A stretch of DNA of 64,000 nucleotides from a bacterium (GTDB taxonomy: Bacteria; Verrucomicrobiota; Verrucomicrobiia; Limisphaerales; UBA11358), in assembly GCA_021780905.1 (NCBI GenBank), contig JAJXXW010000050.1:48762-112761 (forward strand), given 5' to 3'. Below, in pieces: positions 6,110 to 26,585 of this stretch. The position numbers were made by a program, and so were the translations under genes. The notes below the pieces were generated by a model. That model made no database searches. It worked only from the letters and a program-made list of their open reading frames with translations, and had not been told where the DNA came from. Each line of letters opens with the position of its first letter. The stretch's first letter is position 1.

Positions 6110-7117
6110 CTAAACAATTTTCAGCTTCGGCAAATCTTGCGAATCCACCAGGCCCACCGGCTCGTTCTTCGAGTTCACGACGATGAGATCGTCAATGTTC
6201 CGCTCGTTGAAAATTTTCAGCGCCTCGACGGCTAGCGCGGTGTCGCGGACACAAATCGGATTACGCGTCATGATTTTTTTGAGCGGCTGTGAGAGGAGAT
6301 TCTCATCGGCGGCCATGTGCCGGCGGAAATCGCCGTCGGTGAATATACCTGTCAGCTTGCCGCGAGAGTTCACGACGGCGAGGCTGCCGGATTTGGCGTG
6401 TGTCATAACGAGCAAGGCCTCTTTCACCGTGAGATGTTCTGACGCAATCGCATTGCGTTCGCCACGGCGCATGATTTCGCCGACTTTCAGCAGCATGGCG
6501 CGGCCAATCGCGCCACTCGGATGATACTTGGCAAAATCATTTTGCGTGAAACCGCGCGCAGCCAGCACCGCCATCGCCAGCGCGTCGCCCATTACCAGGG
6601 TCGCCGTCGTGCTGCTCGTCGGCGCGAGGTTGAAGGGACACGCCTCTTGGTCCACTTTTAGGTTTAGCGCCAGATCACTGTGGCGCGCGAGCGACGATTT
6701 CAAATTGCCGGTGAGCGAAATAATTTTAATGGAAAATCGCTTCAGTGCGGGTAGGAGATTTAGCAGTTCATCCGATTCGCCGGAATAGCTCAACGCAAGA
6801 ATCACATCGCCATCATTAACGATACCCACATCGCCGTGCAACGCGTCCACGCTGTTGAGCACGACGGCGCTGGAGCCAGTGCTCGTCAACGTTGCGGCGA
6901 TTTTGGCGCCGACGTTGCCGGATTTGCCGATGCCAACGATGACGATTTTTCCGCGACGCTTCAACGTCTCGACCAGCAACTCGACGGCAGCGGCAAAATT
7001 TCCGTCCAGAAGTGAGCGGACTTTTTTGAGCGCAGCAATTTCGATATCAAAAACTTTTCGGGCCTGGGCGATGGGCTTCACGGCCGGAAGCTTGCCCGTA
7101 ACCGACCTTGAATTCAA
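6110..7117 (-). CDS. kdsD: KpsF/GutQ-type arabinose-5-phosphate isomerase (SIS + CBS domains)
   Basis: GIGKSGNVGAKIAATLTSTGSSAVVLN, DALHGDVGIV, GAIGRAMLLKV and CBS repeats. Confidence 0.92.
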   Translation of the reverse strand: MNSRSVTGKLPAVKPIAQARKVFDIEIAALKKVRSLLDGNFAAAVELLVETLKRRGKIVIVGIGKSGNVGAKIAATLTSTGSSAVVLNSVDALHGDVGIVNDGDVILALSYSGESDELLNLLPALKRFSIKIISLTGNLKSSLARHSDLALNLKVDQEACPFNLAPTSSTTATLVMGDALAMAVLAARGFTQNDFAKYHPSGAIGRAMLLKVGEIMRRGERNAIASEHLTVKEALLVMTHAKSGSLAVVNSRGKLTGIFTDGDFRRHMAADENLLSQPLKKIMTRNPICVRDTALAVEALKIFNERNIDDLIVVNSKNEPVGLVDSQDLPKLKIV

Positions 7118-9019: not shown

Positions 9020-10081
9020 TTAATCCACGTTCGGATAGGAGCCGAGAATTTTCACGAAGTTGCAATGTTTGCCGAGATGCGCGATGGCGTTGGCGACTTT
9101 GGCGTCCTGATAATGTCCGGCGCAGTCAATGAAGAAGAAATATTCCCACGCCTTGCGTTTGCTGGGGCGGGATTCAATCTTGGACATGTTGATCTTGAAT
9201 TTCTTGAACGCCGCGATGGCCTCGTGCAGCGCGCCGGATTTGTCAGCCACGCTCAACATCAGGCTCGTGCGGTCATCGCCGGTCGGCGGACTGCACGTGC
9301 GGCCAAGAACAATGAAGCGCGTGACATTGACGAAATTGTCCTGGATGTCCTGCGCCAAAATCTTCAGCCCGTATTTTTCCGCCGCCAGCACGCCGCCGAG
9401 CGCGGCGGAGAATTTTTCCCTGGCCGCCAGTTCCGCCGAGCGCGCATTGGAGGAGGTTTCGACGATTTCCACGCGCGGCAGATTTTTCGCGAGCCAGCCG
9501 CGGCATTGCGCGAGCGACTGCGGATGCACATAAAGCTTTTTAATTTTTGCACGTGGCGAATTGCTCATCAGGCATTGCTGAATCTTCAGCAGCACCTGCG
9601 AGACGATTTTCAAATCGCTGTCCACAAACATGTCGAGCGTGTGCGTGACAACGCCTTCGGTGGAATTTTCCACCGGCACCACGCCGTAATCCGCGCTCTT
9701 TTTGGCGACCTCGGTAAACACGTCGCCGATGGTTTTCTGCGCGGAGTAATTCAAACTCGCGCCAAATTTTTGAATCGCCGCCTGATGGGTGAACGTCGCC
9801 TCCGGCCCGAAATACGCGATGGTCATCGATTTCTCCAGTGCGAGGGCGCTGGACATGATTTCGCGGTAGATGGCGCGCAATTGTTCCGCCGTCAGCGGCC
9901 CGGTGTTTTGCGCGCAGACGCGGTCGAACACGGCGCGCTCGCGGTGCGGCGCGTAAATCTCCTCGCCCGCCGCCAGCTTGATGTCGCCGATGGCGAGAAC
10001 GTGTCGAGTGCGGGCGTTCAGCAGCCGGACAATCTGCGTGTCCAGCTTGTCAATCGCCTGACGATGCTTGGAAAGGCTCAT
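9020..10081 (-). CDS. pheA: Bifunctional chorismate mutase / prephenate dehydratase
   Basis: N-terminal CM helix (MSLSKHRQAIDKLDTQIVRLLNAR), PDT domain (YFGPEATFTHQAA, VVPVENSTEGVV), ACT (ESRPSKRKAWEYFFFID). Confidence 0.95.
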   Translation of the reverse strand: MSLSKHRQAIDKLDTQIVRLLNARTRHVLAIGDIKLAAGEEIYAPHRERAVFDRVCAQNTGPLTAEQLRAIYREIMSSALALEKSMTIAYFGPEATFTHQAAIQKFGASLNYSAQKTIGDVFTEVAKKSADYGVVPVENSTEGVVTHTLDMFVDSDLKIVSQVLLKIQQCLMSNSPRAKIKKLYVHPQSLAQCRGWLAKNLPRVEIVETSSNARSAELAAREKFSAALGGVLAAEKYGLKILAQDIQDNFVNVTRFIVLGRTCSPPTGDDRTSLMLSVADKSGALHEAIAAFKKFKINMSKIESRPSKRKAWEYFFFIDCAGHYQDAKVANAIAHLGKHCNFVKILGSYPNVD

Positions 10082-10230: not shown

Positions 10231-11733
10231 ATGTATTCGCCGACTGCCGATGACTTTTTGAAGCTCGCGACCCAGGGAAACCTCATACCCGTCGCGCGCC
10301 GCATCCTGGCCGACCTCGAAACGCCGCTCTCGGCCTACCGCAAAATCCGCGGCGCGGGCGAATCGTTTCTGTTCGAATCCGTCGAGGGCGGCGAGCACAT
10401 CGGGCGCTACTCGTTCGTCGGCTGCAACCCGCGCGCGGTCATCCGGCAGGACGGCCAGCACGTCCAGGTCATCGAAAACGGCCGCATCATCGAAAGCGCC
10501 GTGGTCGGCCAGGACGTGAAGGACGGACTTGAAATCGTCGAGCGCATCATGAAGAAATATCGCGCCGTGGCGGTGCCTGGTTTGCCGCGTTTCACTGGTG
10601 GTGCGGTCGGTTTTATCGGCTACGAATTCATCCATGACGTCGAGCCGTCCGTGCCGCGCCCGGCGCACGACGAGCTGAAAACGCCGGTGATGTATTTTCT
10701 CGTGGCCGACCAGCTTCTGATTTTTGACCGCGTGCAGCAGACGATCACGATTCTGGTGAACGCGATTTTGGATGACGCTGAAAATCCCGCCGAAGCCTAC
10801 GAAAATGCCACCGGCGAAATCGACCGCTTGGTCGCCTTGCTCGAACAACCGAGCGAGCACGCGGCCATCAGCGTGACTCGCGAAGTGGCAAATGTGGATT
10901 TTGTCTCCAATCAGACCAAGGAAAAATTTGTCGCCAACGTCGAGGCGTCCAAAAAATTCATCACCGCCGGTGACATTATCCAGGTGGTCGGCTCGCAGCG
11001 TTTTTCCGCGCCGGTCACGGCGTCGCCGCTGGACATTTACCGCGCGGTGCGGAACGTGAACCCGTCGCCGTATCTGTTTTTGTTGGAGCTGGACGGCTTT
11101 GCGCTTGTGGGGGCCTCGCCGGAACTTCATGTGCGTTGCGAGGAAGGCAAAGTGGAGATCCGCCCGATTGCCGGCACCCGGCGGCGCGGCAGGAGCGAGA
11201 CCGAAGACGCCGCGCTCGAAAAGGAACTGCTCGCCGACCCGAAGGAGCGCGCCGAGCACGTCATGCTCGTGGACCTAGCGCGCAACGACATCGGCCGCGT
11301 ATGCGATTTCGGCAGCGTGTCGGTGAAGGATTTGATGTTCATCGAGCGATACAGCCACGTCATGCACATCGTCTCACAGGTGGAAGGCCAATTGTCCGCC
11401 GGCAAATCAAACTACGATCTGATGCGCGCGACGTTTCCCGCCGGCACGGTCAGCGGCGCGCCGAAAATCCGGGCCATGCAGATCATTTCCGAACTGGAAC
11501 AGACCACGCGGGGCACCTACGCCGGCTGCGTCGGCTATTTTTCCTTCAACGGCAACCTTGATACCTGTATCACCATCCGCACCGCGCTCATCAAGGATGG
11601 CAAAGCTTATGTGCAGGCCGGCGGCGGCTGGGTGAATGATTCCACGCCGGAAGGCGAGTTTCAGGAGACCGTCAACAAATCCATGGCCATGCGGAAAGCC
11701 ATCGCAATGGCGGAGAATTTTTCCAAGGCGTGA
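10231..11733 (+). CDS. trpE: Anthranilate synthase component I
   Basis: PIAGTRRRGRSETED, LVDLARNDIGRV, FPAGTVSGAPKIRAM, YAGCVGYFSFNGNLDTCITIRT. Confidence 0.93.
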   Translation: MYSPTADDFLKLATQGNLIPVARRILADLETPLSAYRKIRGAGESFLFESVEGGEHIGRYSFVGCNPRAVIRQDGQHVQVIENGRIIESAVVGQDVKDGLEIVERIMKKYRAVAVPGLPRFTGGAVGFIGYEFIHDVEPSVPRPAHDELKTPVMYFLVADQLLIFDRVQQTITILVNAILDDAENPAEAYENATGEIDRLVALLEQPSEHAAISVTREVANVDFVSNQTKEKFVANVEASKKFITAGDIIQVVGSQRFSAPVTASPLDIYRAVRNVNPSPYLFLLELDGFALVGASPELHVRCEEGKVEIRPIAGTRRRGRSETEDAALEKELLADPKERAEHVMLVDLARNDIGRVCDFGSVSVKDLMFIERYSHVMHIVSQVEGQLSAGKSNYDLMRATFPAGTVSGAPKIRAMQIISELEQTTRGTYAGCVGYFSFNGNLDTCITIRTALIKDGKAYVQAGGGWVNDSTPEGEFQETVNKSMAMRKAIAMAENFSKA

Positions 11734-16020: not shown

Positions 16021-16064
16021 TTTTCATGTAATTTTCATCTCCTGTTCATCTCTTGTTCATCTTC
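16021..16064 (+). promoter_or_regulatory. Four tandem 11-bp direct repeats, PhoB/OmpR-type binding-site architecture
   Basis: TTTTCATGTAA TTTTCATCTCC TGTTCATCTCT TGTTCATCTTC. Confidence 0.6.
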
Positions 16065-16149
16065 AGGGCGTCTCATGTATTAGAGGATGATGGCGGGAAG
16101 ATGTGGCAGGCCAGTCAAGCCATCTCCTCGGAATCTGAGGAACCATGTT

Positions 16150-18789
16150 ATGAAACGCTTCTTGAATTCACTCACGGTGATGGCCGCCGGGGTTTTGCTT
16201 TTGTCAGATACCACGATGGCCACCGGCCAGTCAGCTAATGACCCAGCTTCTTCCAACGCCGCAAGCGCCGCAGCCGTCCAAGCGGATGCCAATGCTGCCT
16301 GGCCGGTGGTGTTCAGCAGCGGCGAAGCCACCTATACGGTTTTCGCACCGCAAAGCGATTCCTGGGACGGTCATGATCTCGCGGCCCGCAGCGCGGTCAG
16401 CGTGCAATCCGCCTCCGACTCGGAGCCCACTTACGGCGTCGTAAGCTTCAACGCCATCACACTGGTGGACAAGACCGCGCGCACCGCCAAGCTGGCGGAT
16501 GTCCAAATCACGCGGGCGGATTTTCCCACCGCCCGCGACCAGACGCCGACCTATCTGGCGGGGCTGCGGCAGGAATTTCCCAAGCGCGCACCGGCGATGG
16601 CGCTGGATCGTTTGGAAACCAGCTTGAACCTGGCCGCCACGCCGGCCAAAGCGGAATCGCTTAACAATATGCCGCCCAAGATCATCATCGCCACGCGGCC
16701 GGCGGCGCTGGTTTACATTGACGGCCCGCCCGCGTGGAGGCCGGTGGCCGGCACCGAATTGGAGCGCGTGATCAACACCCGCATGTTGCTGCTGAAGGAT
16801 GCGGCGGGCCGCTATTATCTACATTTCTTTGACGGCTATCTTCAGGCTCCGTCGTTGGATGGTCCGTGGAGCGTGGCCCACCAGCCGCCCGCCGGCGCCG
16901 ACACCGCCGAGAAAGTGGCGGCGGATTCGGGGCAGGTGGACTTGATGCGCGGCCAGCCGGATGCGACGACCCAGAAAGCGCCGTCGTTGAGCACGTCGCC
17001 CACACCGGACATTTTCGTGGCGACCCAGCCCACCGAACTGATCTCTTTCAATGGCCCGCCAAATTACGCCTCGATTCCGGGCACGGATCTGTTGTATGCC
17101 GAAAACACGTCCGGCAACGTGTTCACGTTATTGACCGATCAACAGAATTACATTTTGATTTCCGGCCGCTGGTATCGCGCGCCTTCCTTGAAAGGGCCGT
17201 GGCAATTCGTGCCGGGCAATGCATTGCCGGGCGATTTTGCGAACATTCCAGATACCAGCGCCAAGGAAAACGTGAAGGCCAGCGTGCCCGGAACGCCGCA
17301 GGCGGAGGAGGCGCTGATTGCCAACAGCATTCCGCAGAGCACGGCGGTGGCGCGGACCACGCAGATGGCCAGTCCGCAGGTGGACGGCGCTTCGCAGCTT
17401 GCCGACATCGAAGGCACGCCGCTCCATTATGTGATGAACAGCGCCACGCCGATCATCGAAGTGGATCCGCAAGCCTGGTATGCCTGCCAGAACGGCGTGT
17501 GGTATGCCGGCACCTCCGCCAGCGGGCCGTGGACGGTGGCCACCGAGGTGCCGCAAGTGATTTATTCCATTCCGACGTCCTCGCCGCTGCACTACCTGAC
17601 TTATGTGCAAGTGTATGCCTCCACGCAGAGCGAAGTCTATGAAGGTTACACGCCCGGTTACTTTGGCACGGAAGTGGAGCCCGACGACACCGTCGTCTAT
17701 GGCACCGGCTATGATTACCAGCCGTGGATTGGTTCGGCGTGGTATGGGCCGCCGGTTACCTGGGGCTGCGGCTTTGCGCCTTGCTGGGCGCCGTGGTGTG
17801 GTTGGGGCTTCGGTTGCGGTTTCGGCTGGGGCTGCGGCTTTGGCGGGTTTGGTTTGGGATGCGATTTCTTCCCGCCAACCCCGTGGTGGGGCGGTTTTTG
17901 CGGCGGTTATGGCGGTTATGGCGGGTTTGATCACGGCGGGTTTGATCACGGCGGGTTTGATCACGGCGGGTTTGATCACGGCGGATTCGATCACGGCGGA
18001 TTCGATCACGGCGGATTTGGTCAAGGCGGATTTGGTCGCGGCGGTTTTGCCAATACCGGCAATAATCTTTACCACCACGGCGGAATTGGCGGGAGTGATT
18101 CACGCGGGCAGTTTGCGGGAAATGGTTTCCATGGGACCGGACGCCAGGGGCTTTCCGGCCAATTTGGCCATGCTTACAATTCGCGGACCGGTCAACTCGC
18201 CGGCGGCCAGCGGGCGCAGGTGGGCAGCGTGACCGGCAGCGCCTGGCATCCGCAGAGCCGCGCTGGTTTTGCGGGGAGCAGCCATTTATTCGGCGGCAGT
18301 GGCGCGTTGGCCAGCAGTCGCGGGTTCACCGGCTCGAGCCAGGTGGGCGCGGCTCGCTCGTGGTCAGGCAGAAATTTCAGCTTCAACGGAAATGTGCCGC
18401 ACGCGCAAAATTTTGGCGGCTCGGGCAGCGTGAATCGGAGTTTCGGCGGTTTCTCACGCGGCTACTCCGGTGGAGGTTCCAGCGGCAATTACCGTGGGGG
18501 AAGTTTTGGTGGTGGAAGTTTCGGTGGCGTCTCGCGCGGCTATGCCGGCGGCAACTTCGGTGGTTCCCGCAGTGGCAACTTTGGCGGTTTCAGTGGCGGA
18601 TCTCGCGGTGGCAGCTTCGGCGGTGGCGGCGCTTTTCGTGGTGGTGGCGGCGGCGGTTTTCATGGCAGTAGCGGATTTGGTGGAGGCTTCCACGGCGGCG
18701 GTAGTTTTGGCGGCGGCGGTGGCGGAGGTTACCACGGCGGGGGCGGGTTTGGCGGCGGCGGACACGGTGGTGGCGGCGGACGCAGATAA
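16150..18789 (+). CDS. Large secreted protein with Gly-rich repetitive C-terminus
   Basis: Signal peptide MKRFLNSLTVMAAGVLLLSDTTMATGQ; N-terminal half has recurring PxWxxVxGTxLxxxxNT / YYxxxxGxWYxAPSLxGPW-like units; C-terminus GGFDH repeats and poly-Gly tail. Confidence 0.8.
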   Translation: MKRFLNSLTVMAAGVLLLSDTTMATGQSANDPASSNAASAAAVQADANAAWPVVFSSGEATYTVFAPQSDSWDGHDLAARSAVSVQSASDSEPTYGVVSFNAITLVDKTARTAKLADVQITRADFPTARDQTPTYLAGLRQEFPKRAPAMALDRLETSLNLAATPAKAESLNNMPPKIIIATRPAALVYIDGPPAWRPVAGTELERVINTRMLLLKDAAGRYYLHFFDGYLQAPSLDGPWSVAHQPPAGADTAEKVAADSGQVDLMRGQPDATTQKAPSLSTSPTPDIFVATQPTELISFNGPPNYASIPGTDLLYAENTSGNVFTLLTDQQNYILISGRWYRAPSLKGPWQFVPGNALPGDFANIPDTSAKENVKASVPGTPQAEEALIANSIPQSTAVARTTQMASPQVDGASQLADIEGTPLHYVMNSATPIIEVDPQAWYACQNGVWYAGTSASGPWTVATEVPQVIYSIPTSSPLHYLTYVQVYASTQSEVYEGYTPGYFGTEVEPDDTVVYGTGYDYQPWIGSAWYGPPVTWGCGFAPCWAPWCGWGFGCGFGWGCGFGGFGLGCDFFPPTPWWGGFCGGYGGYGGFDHGGFDHGGFDHGGFDHGGFDHGGFDHGGFGQGGFGRGGFANTGNNLYHHGGIGGSDSRGQFAGNGFHGTGRQGLSGQFGHAYNSRTGQLAGGQRAQVGSVTGSAWHPQSRAGFAGSSHLFGGSGALASSRGFTGSSQVGAARSWSGRNFSFNGNVPHAQNFGGSGSVNRSFGGFSRGYSGGGSSGNYRGGSFGGGSFGGVSRGYAGGNFGGSRSGNFGGFSGGSRGGSFGGGGAFRGGGGGGFHGSSGFGGGFHGGGSFGGGGGGGYHGGGGFGGGGHGGGGGRR
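17921..18055 (+). repeat. 15-bp coding tandem repeat (GGFDH x6, then GFGQG/GFGRG variants)
   Basis: gcgggtttgatcacg repeated in tandem, drifting to gcggattcgatcacg and gcggatttggtcaag. Confidence 0.9.
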
Positions 18790-20948: not shown

Positions 20949-23900
20949 TTATTTGAAACGATTTGCCAGTTGGTGGCGTTCGTTCGCCATGAAATACAGC
21001 AGCGGCACCAGCACCGGCGCGGTGAACATGGAAATCAAACTTCCCGCCATCAGCGCGATCGCCAAGCCCTGAAAAATCGGGTCGGACAGGATTACCGTCG
21101 CACCCGCCACCACGGCCAGCGCCGTGAGCATGATGGGCCGGAACCGCACCATGCCCGCCTCCACCACCGCCGCCGCCAGCGGATGCCCCTCCGCCAGCCG
21201 CAGTTCGATGAAGTCCACGAGGATGATGGAGTTGCGCACCACGATGCCCGCGCCGGCCATGAAGCCGATCATCGAAGTCGCGGTGAAAAAGGCGTGCAAA
21301 ATTCCGTGTGCCGGCAGCACACCAATGAGCGAGAACGGAATCACCACCATCACGATCAGCGGCGTGAGGAAGGACTTGAACCAGCCAACCATCAAAACGT
21401 AAATCAGCACCAGCACGGCGGCGAACGCCAGGCCCAAATCGCGGAACACTTCGATGGTGATGTGCCATTCACCGTCCCACTTCATGCTGGGCTGCTGATC
21501 AGTGAACGGCAGCGTGGCATTGAGAATTTTCAACTTTGCCCCGTCGCCGCCGAATTCGCGCGTGTCGAGTTTCTCCAGCGCCTGGTTCATTTTCAGGATC
21601 GCATACACCGGGCTTTCCACCACTCCCGCGACATCGCCGATGACGTAGGTGACGGGCATGAGATTTTTGTGATAGATGCTTTTGTCGGTGATGGTCTGCT
21701 TTACTTTCACCAGCTCGCGTAATGGCACGAGCGGCCCGGTGCCGTCGGCGCTGGAACGCACGCGCAAGGCGAGCAATTCCTCCGGGGTGCTGCGGCTGGC
21801 GAGCGGCAGTTGCAGGACGATGTTCACGTCCTCCTTCTCGCGCGGGACGTGCAGCAGATCCACCGAGTCGCCGCCCACGGCGATTTTCAGCGTCTGGGAA
21901 ATTGTTTCCGCGCTGATGCCGTTCAGCGCCGCCTTTTCCTTGTCAATCACAAACTCGACCTTGGGTTGGTCGGCCTCGATATACCAGTCGGTGTCCACCA
22001 CTCCAGGCGTGCTGTGGAAAATATCAATCACCTTCTGCGCCAGCGCGAGACGGTCATGCTCGGTGGGTCCGTAAACTTCGGCAACCAAAGTTTGCAGCAC
22101 TGGCGGGCCGGGCGGCACTTCGGCCACGGCCACCCGCGCGCCGAATTTTGCGGCGATTTCCGCCACGCGCGGCCGGACCCGCTTGGCGATGTCGTGGCTC
22201 TGCGCCTTGCGTTCGTTCTTCGGCACGAGGTTGATTTGCAAATCCGCCACGTTCGCGCCGCGTCGCATGAAGTAATGGCGCACGAGTCCGTTGAAATTGA
22301 ACGGCGACGCCACGCCCGCGTAAATTTCGTAATCCGTCACTTCCGGTTCCGTGCGAACGCTGGCGGCAATTTCCCGCGCGACTTGCGCGGTGCGTTCGAG
22401 CGAACTGCCTTCCGGCATGTTCAGGATGATTTGAAATTCGCTCTTGTTGTCGAATGGCAGCATTTTCACTTTCACCCAACCGGCATAGACCAGCGCCATC
22501 GAGCCAAGCAGCAGCACGCAGAGCACGCCGAGAAAAATGTAGCGCCGTTTCGGACTGGCGATCAGCGGCTGCATCAGCCCGCGATACATCCGACCAAAGA
22601 AATTTTCACTCGCCGATTCACGATCCGGAGTGTGGTCGTCCGCCGCATGAAATTTCTTCCGCCACTGCAAAATGCGGATGGCTGCCCACGGCGTGACGAT
22701 GAAGGAAATGGCCAGCGAGAAGAACATCGCCGCGCTCGCGCCAATCGGAATCGGCCGCATATACGGTCCCATCAGCCCGCCGACGAACGCCATCGGCAGC
22801 ACGGCGGCGATCACCGCGAACGTCGCGAGAATGGTCGGGTTGCCCACTTCACCCACGGCTTCGATGGCAATGATGGCGCGGCTGCGGCCCCTGCTCGCCG
22901 GCAAATGAAAATGGCGGACGATGTTTTCCACGACCACAATCGCGTCATCCACCAGGATGCCGATGGAGAAAATCAGCGCGAACAGCGTGATTCGGTTCAG
23001 CGTGAAACCGTAGAGGTAAAAAATCAGCAGCGTCAGCGCGAGCGTCGCGGGAATCGCCAGCGCCACGATGAGGGACTCGCGCCAGCCCAGCACCAATAAA
23101 ATCAGCACCGACACGCTCACCACCGCGAGCAGCATGTGCCAGAGCAGTTCGTTGGACTTGTCCTCCGCCGTCAGGCCGTAGTTGCGCGTGACGGTGACCG
23201 GGACACCGGCGGGAATGATGTAGCCCTTGAGCGTGTCAATTTTCCTGAGCACTTCGTTGGCCACCGAGATGGCATTCGCGCCGGGCCGCTTGGCGATGGA
23301 GAGCGTGACGGCCGGCTCATCGGCGGAAATTTTATTCGCCGCGCCGGAACCAAAGAACACATACTGGCCCGGTTCTTCCGCGCCGTCCACGATGGTCGCC
23401 ACGTCGCGCAGATAGACCGGCTTGCCGCCATACACGCCCACGACCACGTTGCCCACGTCCTGGGCGGTCTGCAAAAACGCGCCGGTTTCCACGATGACAT
23501 CGTGATTGTCGCTGGTCAGGTCGCCGGCGGAATACTGCCGGTTGGCCTGCTGCAACATTGGCGCCAGACCGGCGGGCGAAAGATTGCGCGACGCCAGCCG
23601 CACCGGGTCGAGCAGCACGCGCAACTGGCGGTGCGCGCCGCCGATGATCGTCGTCTCGGCGACCAGCGGCACCTGCTTCACCGCATCGTCCACCTGCGCG
23701 ACCAGCCGGCGCAGCGCGAGATGATCGTAACGCGCACTGTGAAACGTCAGCGCCAGGATCGGCACGTCATCAATCGTCCGCGCCTTGATCAGCGGCGTGG
23801 AAACGCCGTGCGGAATCTTGTCGAAATTCTGCTGCATCTTCTGGTTCAGCTTCACCAGGCTGCTGTCCATGTCTTCGCCGACCTTGAACCGCACGATGAC

Positions 23901-24215
23901 CATCGCCTGGCCTTCGCTGGAGGTGGAGTAGATGTATTCGACGCCGGGAATTTCCCAGAGCAGTTTTTCCATCGGCCGCGTGGCGCGCTCCTCAACTTCC
24001 TTCGCGCCGGAGCCGGGCATGGAAACCAGCACGTCCACCATTGGCACTTTGATTTGCGGCTCCTCCTCGCGCGGCAACATCACCACGGCAAACACGCCGA
24101 GCAGCAAGGACGCGATGACGATGAGCAGCGTCAGCTTGGAATCAATGAACGACTGCGCGATGCGGCCGGCAATGCCCAGAGGCGCGTCCGCTGGATTGTC
24201 GTGGCTGGCTTTCAC
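20949..24215 (-). CDS. Efflux RND transporter permease (AcrB/AcrD/AcrF family)
   Basis: 1088 aa; [43 protein letters not shown] and AcrB-type architecture. Confidence 0.95.
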
Positions 24216-25270
24216 GGCTTGATATTCACTGGTTGTCCGTCGGCCAGGGCGGAAGCATTTTCCGTCACGACTTGCTCGCCGGAGTTCAAGCCGGAGACCA
24301 CTTCCATTTCATCACCGACGCGGTTTCCAGTTTTGACCAGGCGCAATTCTGCGTGGCCGTTGGCGACCACAAAAACTATTTCCATCTGCCCGCGCTGAAC
24401 GACGGCGGAACCGGGAACGCGAATCGCGCTCGTTTCGCCAACGGGAACCGAGACGCGGCCAAACTGTCCCGAACGCAAACCCGTCGCGCCGGGCAAATCC
24501 AGTTTCACCAGATAGGTGCGGCTGTTCGGGTCGGCCGTTGGTGACAACTCGGCAACGGTGCCTTCCATGTCACCGGCAACGGAGGCGATGCGCACGGCAA
24601 GTTTCTCGCCGGGCTTCACATTGCCAATCAATGCTTCCGGCACGTCGGCTTCGAGCCGCAGCGTGTCGGGGTTTTCGATTTGCAGCAGCGGCTTGCCTGG
24701 TGTGGCGAGGTCGCCCACGTCGGCGAGCTTGCGGGTGATGACGCCGTCGAATGGCGCGAGAACGTCGCAGTAACTCATCATCGCTTTCGCTTCCGCCGCG
24801 GCTGCTTTGGCCATGCTAAAATGGGCGTCGGCGGCATCATACTCCGATCGGGTGGAAGCCTGTTGCTGATACAGGTTGGAGATGCGTTTCCAGTCCTGCT
24901 CCGCCTGCGCCAGCGCGGCGTTGGCTTGATCCAGTCGCGATGAAATTTCGGCGGCGTCCAGATGGGCCAGCAGTTCGCCCGCCTTCACCGTCTGGCCGGG
25001 AACGACCAGCATTTGGTCTATGCGTCCGCTGACTTTGGCCTCGATGGTGGCGCTCAATTTCGGGCGCACCGTGCCGACCACGTCTTCCGTGGCCGCGCGC
25101 GACTTGCGCTCGACGGTCTGCGCGCGAACCTGCGCGGTCGGCAGGCTGGATGAATTGTCGCCGGATTTTTCCTTTTTTGCGCCGCAGCCGGAAAAACACA
25201 GCGCCGAAGCGAGAAGTATTACCGCGGCGGTAACAAAAGACAGGCGGGGAATTGGCATCAATCGTTTCAT
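24212..25270 (-). CDS. Efflux RND transporter periplasmic adaptor subunit
   Basis: [58 protein letters not shown]; 4-bp overlap with the permease. Confidence 0.93.
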
Positions 25271-25271
25271 A

Positions 25272-26585
25272 TCATTTAACGCTCATCTGACTGTCGAGCT
25301 GGGGCAACGCGAGCGCTTTTCGCAACGCGGCCACGGCAATGCGCTGGTCGGATTCAGCTTCGGCGCGGCGCACGCGGGCGGCAACCAGCGCGGTTTCGGC
25401 ATCAATCAATTGCGTCGAAATGGCCAGCCCTTGCTCAAACCGGTCACGGGTCAGCTTGGCGCTTTCCGCCGCCTGTTCGACGGATTTTTCGGTGACGGCC
25501 AGGCGTTCGTTCACCGCCGTGAGAGTGAGTCTGGCTTGTTCCACTTCAAAGTCGAGCGCCAGCCGCAGTTTGCGTTTCTCCTCGCTGGCCGATTCCAAAT
25601 GGGCTTTGGCCTCGCGGGTTTTGGCGCGGCTGGAAAAACCATCCCACAAATCCCATTGCACCATCACGCCGGCGGAGTAGCTGTTGCCATCGCCGCCGGT
25701 GACCCAGCCGTAATCATGATCCAGGCTGCCGAACGCGCTCACCCGCGGCTGGTAGCCGCTTTTTGCGCCTTTGATTTCTGCTTGGGCGGCGCGCTCCTGT
25801 TCGCTGGCTGCGGCCAGTTCGGGGCGATGCGAAAAATCACCACCGATTGGCACCGGTGCCACCGGTGCTACTTCAACGACCGAAAAATCCTCCGACTCGA
25901 TGCCCAGCAAGTTGCGCAGCGTCAGAACCGCGAGCGTGTTGGCATTGCGGGCACGCACGAGATCTTCGCGCGCCTGCGTCAGCCGGACTTCAATGTCCAG
26001 TTCATCGGATTTCAGCAGCGTGCCGCCATCGAGCCGTTTCTTGGCGACGGCCTGGTTGCCCTCGAACGCCGTCACCGCCGCCTCGGTGGCATTGATGAAT
26101 TGTCTGGTCTTCAGAATGGTTTGGAAGGCGCGCACCACTTCAAAGCTGAGTTCATTGCGGACGGCCGCGCTGGTTTGTTTGGCGGCTTCCGTGTTGGCTT
26201 GCGCCGCTTCGCGTCCGGCGGTGATTTTTCCGCCGGCATACAGCGGCACCGTGACCAAGCCGCGCACATTCAAGTCGTCCACGCCGGGCACGTTATTGAA
26301 ATTGAGCGACGAATTATAGGCGCGCTGGTTGAGGATGCTGCCGAACACCAGCATCGGATTATCCGTGCGGGTGTAGCTGGACTGGAATTGGAGGTGCGGC
26401 CAGAACGTGGAGTCAGCCTGTTCCAACCCGGCTTGCGCGGCCAGGATTCGCTGTTGTGCCAGGCGCGCGTCCGGACTGTGCGACAACGCGTAATCCAGTG
26501 CGCGTTCCAGCGTCCACGGCTCGGCGGCCCCGGCGGCCAGCGAACACGACAGCGACAAGGCCAGAAAGCCCGGGAGTATTTTCAT
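25272..26585 (-). CDS. TolC-family outer membrane efflux protein
   Basis: Signal peptide; LERALDYALSHSPDARLAQQRILAAQAGLEQADS; GVMVQWDLWDGF. Confidence 0.92.
   Translation of the reverse strand: MKILPGFLALSLSCSLAAGAAEPWTLERALDYALSHSPDARLAQQRILAAQAGLEQADSTFWPHLQFQSSYTRTDNPMLVFGSILNQRAYNSSLNFNNVPGVDDLNVRGLVTVPLYAGGKITAGREAAQANTEAAKQTSAAVRNELSFEVVRAFQTILKTRQFINATEAAVTAFEGNQAVAKKRLDGGTLLKSDELDIEVRLTQAREDLVRARNANTLAVLTLRNLLGIESEDFSVVEVAPVAPVPIGGDFSHRPELAAASEQERAAQAEIKGAKSGYQPRVSAFGSLDHDYGWVTGGDGNSYSAGVMVQWDLWDGFSSRAKTREAKAHLESASEEKRKLRLALDFEVEQARLTLTAVNERLAVTEKSVEQAAESAKLTRDRFEQGLAISTQLIDAETALVAARVRRAEAESDQRIAVAALRKALALPQLDSQMSVK

Follow-up and report, generated by a model that had tools for sequence, protein, structure and literature searches.

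Four phased 11-bp repeats upstream of a secreted Gly-rich protein gene: a candidate operator of a CusR/CopR-like two-component regulator

The repeat array and its promoter

The window, by which we mean the whole 64-kb stretch of DNA that was analysed, contains a gene for a secreted Gly-rich protein that is preceded by a set of short direct repeats. The features of this region are:

16021..16064, + strand: four 11-bp direct repeats, proposed operator, with half-sites TTTTCAT, TTTTCAT, TGTTCAT and TGTTCAT
16065..16084, + strand: conserved downstream block AGGGCGTCTCATGTATTAGA, with the presumed -10 region inside it
16150..18789, + strand: ORF of the 879-aa secreted Gly-rich protein, presumed target gene; homologs begin near 16150

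Direct reading places the four units at 16021 (TTTTCATGTAA), 16032 (TTTTCATCTCC), 16043 (TGTTCATCTCT) and 16054 (TGTTCATCTTC), the last base being 16064. TTCAT is present in every unit, the 11-bp phase is exact, and 85 bp lie between the end of the array and the ATG at 16150, which bears out an earlier note on this DNA that described four phased TTCAT repeats at this distance from the start codon. There is a second in-frame ATG at 16087, but the starts of homologs sit near 16150 instead. The array has the arrangement of a direct-repeat operator of the OmpR family, namely at least two half-sites in the same orientation, with a phase of 10–11 bp, upstream of a gene.

Three consecutive TTCAT-N6 units occur nowhere else in the window, where 0.15 occurrences are expected by chance even with two mismatches allowed, and a genome-wide pattern search that allowed up to one mismatch found no second copy of the array in the assembly (3.89 Mb, 96 contigs). 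Units 2–4 are alike beyond TTCAT, which could suggest that the array is a product of chance or of recent tandem duplication and has no function; this is extremely improbable given the expectation of 0.15 and the three units that stand in matching register before a 72% ortholog, described below.

The downstream block contains GTCT at 16070-16073, 9 bp past the last TTCAT, which is its position in related promoters. Candidates for the -10 region are TCATGT (16073-16078, by register) and TATTAG (16078-16083). A search for a sigma70 consensus at the window promoter found none, which fits, without proving, an activator-dependent promoter.

Pho promoters of the same genome

The earlier note had attributed the array to a PhoB-like regulator, with phosphate starvation as the likely signal, and had suggested looking for TTCAT arrays in front of pst-type genes. 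Pho boxes are likewise 11-bp direct repeats (PMC3978041), and the genome encodes a PhoB/PhoR-like pair, on contig C79, as well as pst genes, on C77. Among the NCBIfam models the regulator fits PhoB best and the kinase PnpS/PhoR, in each case with a score below the cut-off. The likeness to a Pho box extends to the type of regulator, which is of the OmpR family in both cases, and to the placement of the array just ahead of the -10 region.

The half-sites are different. The phoB promoter carries 11-bp TGTMAC repeats (TTGTCACCCAA, TCGTCACCCAT, TTGTCACGGGA), as does the promoter of the porin-like gene preceding pst (TTGTCACACAA, CTGTAACAATT, CCGACATTTGT, TTGTAACAAGC), and the gene after the porin-like gene has ACGTCACCCAA, TCGTAACAAGC upstream. 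When the genome was searched for a TGTMAC triple, the phoB promoter ranked first and the porin promoter was among the best; the total at three mismatches was not above the control, and the top matches alone count. The Pho-box unit TTGTCAC differs from the window unit TTTTCAT at two of seven core positions, and the genome's TGTMAC box is missing from the window promoter. No similarity was found between the window promoter and either the phoB or the porin-pst promoter (514/600 and 365/600 shuffles, respectively, score as well), and the pst and phoB promoters contain no comparable TTCAT array, which in this genome is found only in the window. PhoB/phosphate control was thus rejected as a candidate on account of the different motif and the absence of promoter similarity, and it is highly unlikely that phosphate starvation induces the gene through a Pho box at this position. 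What stands of the earlier proposal is the class of regulator: the tandem 11-bp half-sites are of OmpR/PhoB type, but PhoB itself is not indicated, and phosphate control of the Gly-rich gene is left unsupported because the Pho promoters carry another motif and the window promoter is unlike both of them. The guess of phosphate starvation gives way to a specific candidate regulator.

The Pho boxes (TGTMAC-N5 repeats) are located as follows, together with a further candidate:

L052 about 6502-6540, - strand: Pho box of phoB
L050 about 11410-11480, - strand: Pho box of the porin-pst promoter
G000:C54:18181-18208: candidate TGTMAC-N5 Pho box on C54

A two-component locus with a second Gly-rich gene

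A search of the assembly for OmpR-type DNA-binding domains found only three, belonging to PhoB, a regulator on contig C33 and a regulator on contig C78. With the assembly about 91% complete, a further regulator of this type could be absent from it. The C78 locus is of particular relevance here:

C78 26028-26711: CusR/CopR-like response regulator, with histidine kinase, RND efflux genes and Gly-rich paralog
L051 10133-10178 (+), 6729-6776 (-), 13013-13059 (+) and about 10006-10051 (-): cluster of three to four regulator sites around the C78 locus

The Gly-rich paralog (64%) comes first, with the regulator directly downstream, followed by the histidine kinase and the RND efflux genes. One of the site copies precedes a gene for a small CBM48-like (AMPK1_CBM) protein. 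The regulator has the domains PF00072 and PF00486 (Trans_reg_C). The closest family of regulator and kinase is that of the CusR/CopR/CzcR/AgrR heavy-metal regulators (TIGR01387), with which the locus also shares the linkage to RND efflux; however, both proteins fall under the curated cut-offs (257.2 bits against 279.2 for the regulator with TIGR01387, and 262 against 292.55 for the kinase with TIGR01386). The score of the regulator against PmrA is lower, at 174 bits. Kinase and regulator resemble heavy-metal sensors, at scores below the family cut-offs.

Likenesses between the promoters were first noticed by eye, and for this reason they were then tested blind, by comparing the best ungapped segment with those from 600 shuffles. 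Two promoters resemble that in the window. The first belongs to the 72% ortholog, in genome G045 from another family of the same order, and reads TCTTAATGCTT, CTTTCATCTGG, GGATAATGTTC, GTGGGGTCTAA; it is intermediate in sequence (TTAAT/TTCAT/ATAAT). Its blind best match to the window upstream region has 28/40 identities (16045-16084), and 0/600 shuffles were as good. The second is the promoter of a small lipoprotein gene on C78, which lies ahead of the paralog operon, on the opposite strand, and reads TTTTAATCGTG, GGTTAAGAGCT, TTTTAATCTTC, GGCACGTCTGC, with GTCT placed as in the window; here the best match has 34/53 identities (16032-16084), again with 0/600 shuffles. Both segments cover the array and the downstream block. 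The canonical promoter of the C78 regulator gave a weak match to the window (39/600 shuffles), while the paralog-operon promoter on C78, a looser version of the array with 3 mismatches, was non-significant in the blind comparison (88/120 shuffles).

At orthologous promoters, to which the earlier note had drawn attention, the 72% ortholog has three units in matching register, and no such array was found in the 260 bp upstream of distant homologs (up to 55% identity), several of which lie directly behind another gene. The array was also not found at the promoter of a second paralog in G045.

An 11-bp period is also seen inside an intergenic element that occurs dispersed, with the core TTTCATCTGYGGTTCATCTGTGGCTAAA; copies of it were noted in the assembly and in genome G184:

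L055 6063-6107 (C21)
L054 7580-7624 (C29)
L052 5672-5715 (between phoB and phoR)
L094 (G184)

The copy on C21 has 17/19 bases identical to the window inside the array, and the array could in principle be a diverged copy of this element, with no regulatory role at this position. We regard this as unlikely: the ATCTGTGGCTAAA part of the element is missing from the window, and the likeness ends within the array, whereas the likeness to the ortholog and C78 promoters continues in register through the downstream block.

The regulator site across the order

A pattern, (TTMAT-N6)x3-N9-GTCT-N4-TA, was drawn from three loci, namely the window, the ortholog promoter and the C78 lipoprotein promoter. Across 320 genomes of the order it matches 24 times, its reversed control not once. 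The window array fits with 0 mismatches, as a locus from which the pattern was partly drawn; the blind promoter comparison points the same way. Many of the other matches read TTAAT-N6-TTCAT-N6-TTAAT, and many are located directly before orthologs of the C78 regulator or, adjoining these, before small lipoprotein or CBM48-like genes. By comparison, TTCAT-only arrays across the order are heterogeneous and number 29, against roughly a dozen in the control.

Orthologs of the regulator were fetched independently by protein (n = 30). The array is present upstream of the regulator gene in 28 of these genomes, within about 25 bp in 27 and at 115 bp in one. The canonical site consists of four phased half-sites (TTCTGAA, TTTTAAT, GTTYA, TTTTAAT), which are kept in 26 aligned rows, and is followed by GTCTATT; a TANNNT-like -10 (TATTCT) starts 12 bp beyond the last TTAAT. 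Twenty-five sites, all from other genomes, served to build a sequence model. In 22 genomes whose site was outside the training set, this model locates sites 10-38 bp in front of the regulator, this being a count of the coinciding cases listed and not a rate. In the genome studied here its significant sites number three, each of them on C78, at the promoters of the regulator, the lipoprotein gene and the CBM48-like gene. The regulator's own promoter carries a canonical site, and for this reason the C78 regulator is probably autoregulated.

The PmrA/PhoP box of enterobacteria likewise has half-sites of the TTAA type, arranged as an 11-bp direct repeat near the -10 region, but two of them where there are four here. 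The box of the related AgrR of Cupriavidus is a 6-4-6 inverted repeat, ATKACAN4TGTMAT (PMC7380067), in contrast to the direct half-sites with 11-bp phase in this clade. The promoters of the C78 regulator's orthologs show four direct half-sites and not such an inverted-repeat box.

Compared with the canonical site, the window array has C for A in half-sites 2 and 4, TTCAT rather than TTAAT; this A is the most conserved base of the site, invariant in the model alignment and nearly so in the wider set. In the genome-wide search with the strict model the window array is missed. With a weight matrix derived solely from the regulator promoters in other genomes, it takes first place in the 64 kb at 19.0 bits, the next distinct site having 5.1 bits and the null maximum being 16.9 bits in 60 x 128 kb. 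The all-TTCAT half-sites might alternatively indicate the operator of another OmpR-family regulator, and C33 indeed encodes a CopR/PmrA-like regulator with its kinase, besides the one that may be missing from the assembly. There is however no such array upstream of the C33 regulator, and the downstream block and register of the window promoter fit the C78-type set, so that this explanation is also rather improbable. We consider it likely, on the basis of the promoter sequences, that the array is an operator of the CusR/CopR-like OmpR-family regulator encoded on C78, in the form of a variant and perhaps weaker site.

The phosphorylated C78 regulator would then bind the four half-sites head-to-tail, as two dimers on one face of the DNA. 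Bound in this way it would abut the -10 region on its upstream side and turn on expression of the secreted Gly-rich protein, possibly in response to an envelope- or metal-type signal. Its predicted targets would be its own gene, the pump cluster and the Gly-rich secreted proteins.

On balance, though by a narrow preference, the observations suggest a two-component regulon that is autoregulated, extends across the order and has an operator grammar of its own (the canonical half-sites plus GTCTATT). It would control RND efflux and small lipoproteins as well as CBM48-like and secreted Gly-rich proteins, and the window gene would belong to it as a relocated paralog by way of a variant all-TTCAT array. 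Such a regulon appears not to have been described before; no description of the motif for this group was found in the open-access literature. For a two-component system present in many genomes of the order, the prediction thereby specifies a concrete binding motif.

On the minus strand of the window, near the Gly-rich gene, ORFs at 20949-26585 look like an operon for RND efflux, with pump, adaptor and outer-membrane factor. The weight matrix did not find the regulator site upstream of these ORFs.

The Gly-rich protein itself matched no family in Pfam or NCBIfam. Homologs were found in 27 of the 320 genomes of the order, and a wider contig scan gave one weak and uninformative match, in Streptomyces. 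A tie to a regulon of efflux or envelope type would be a first functional lead for this family. The C-terminal half of the protein contains a tandem GFDHG-type repeat.
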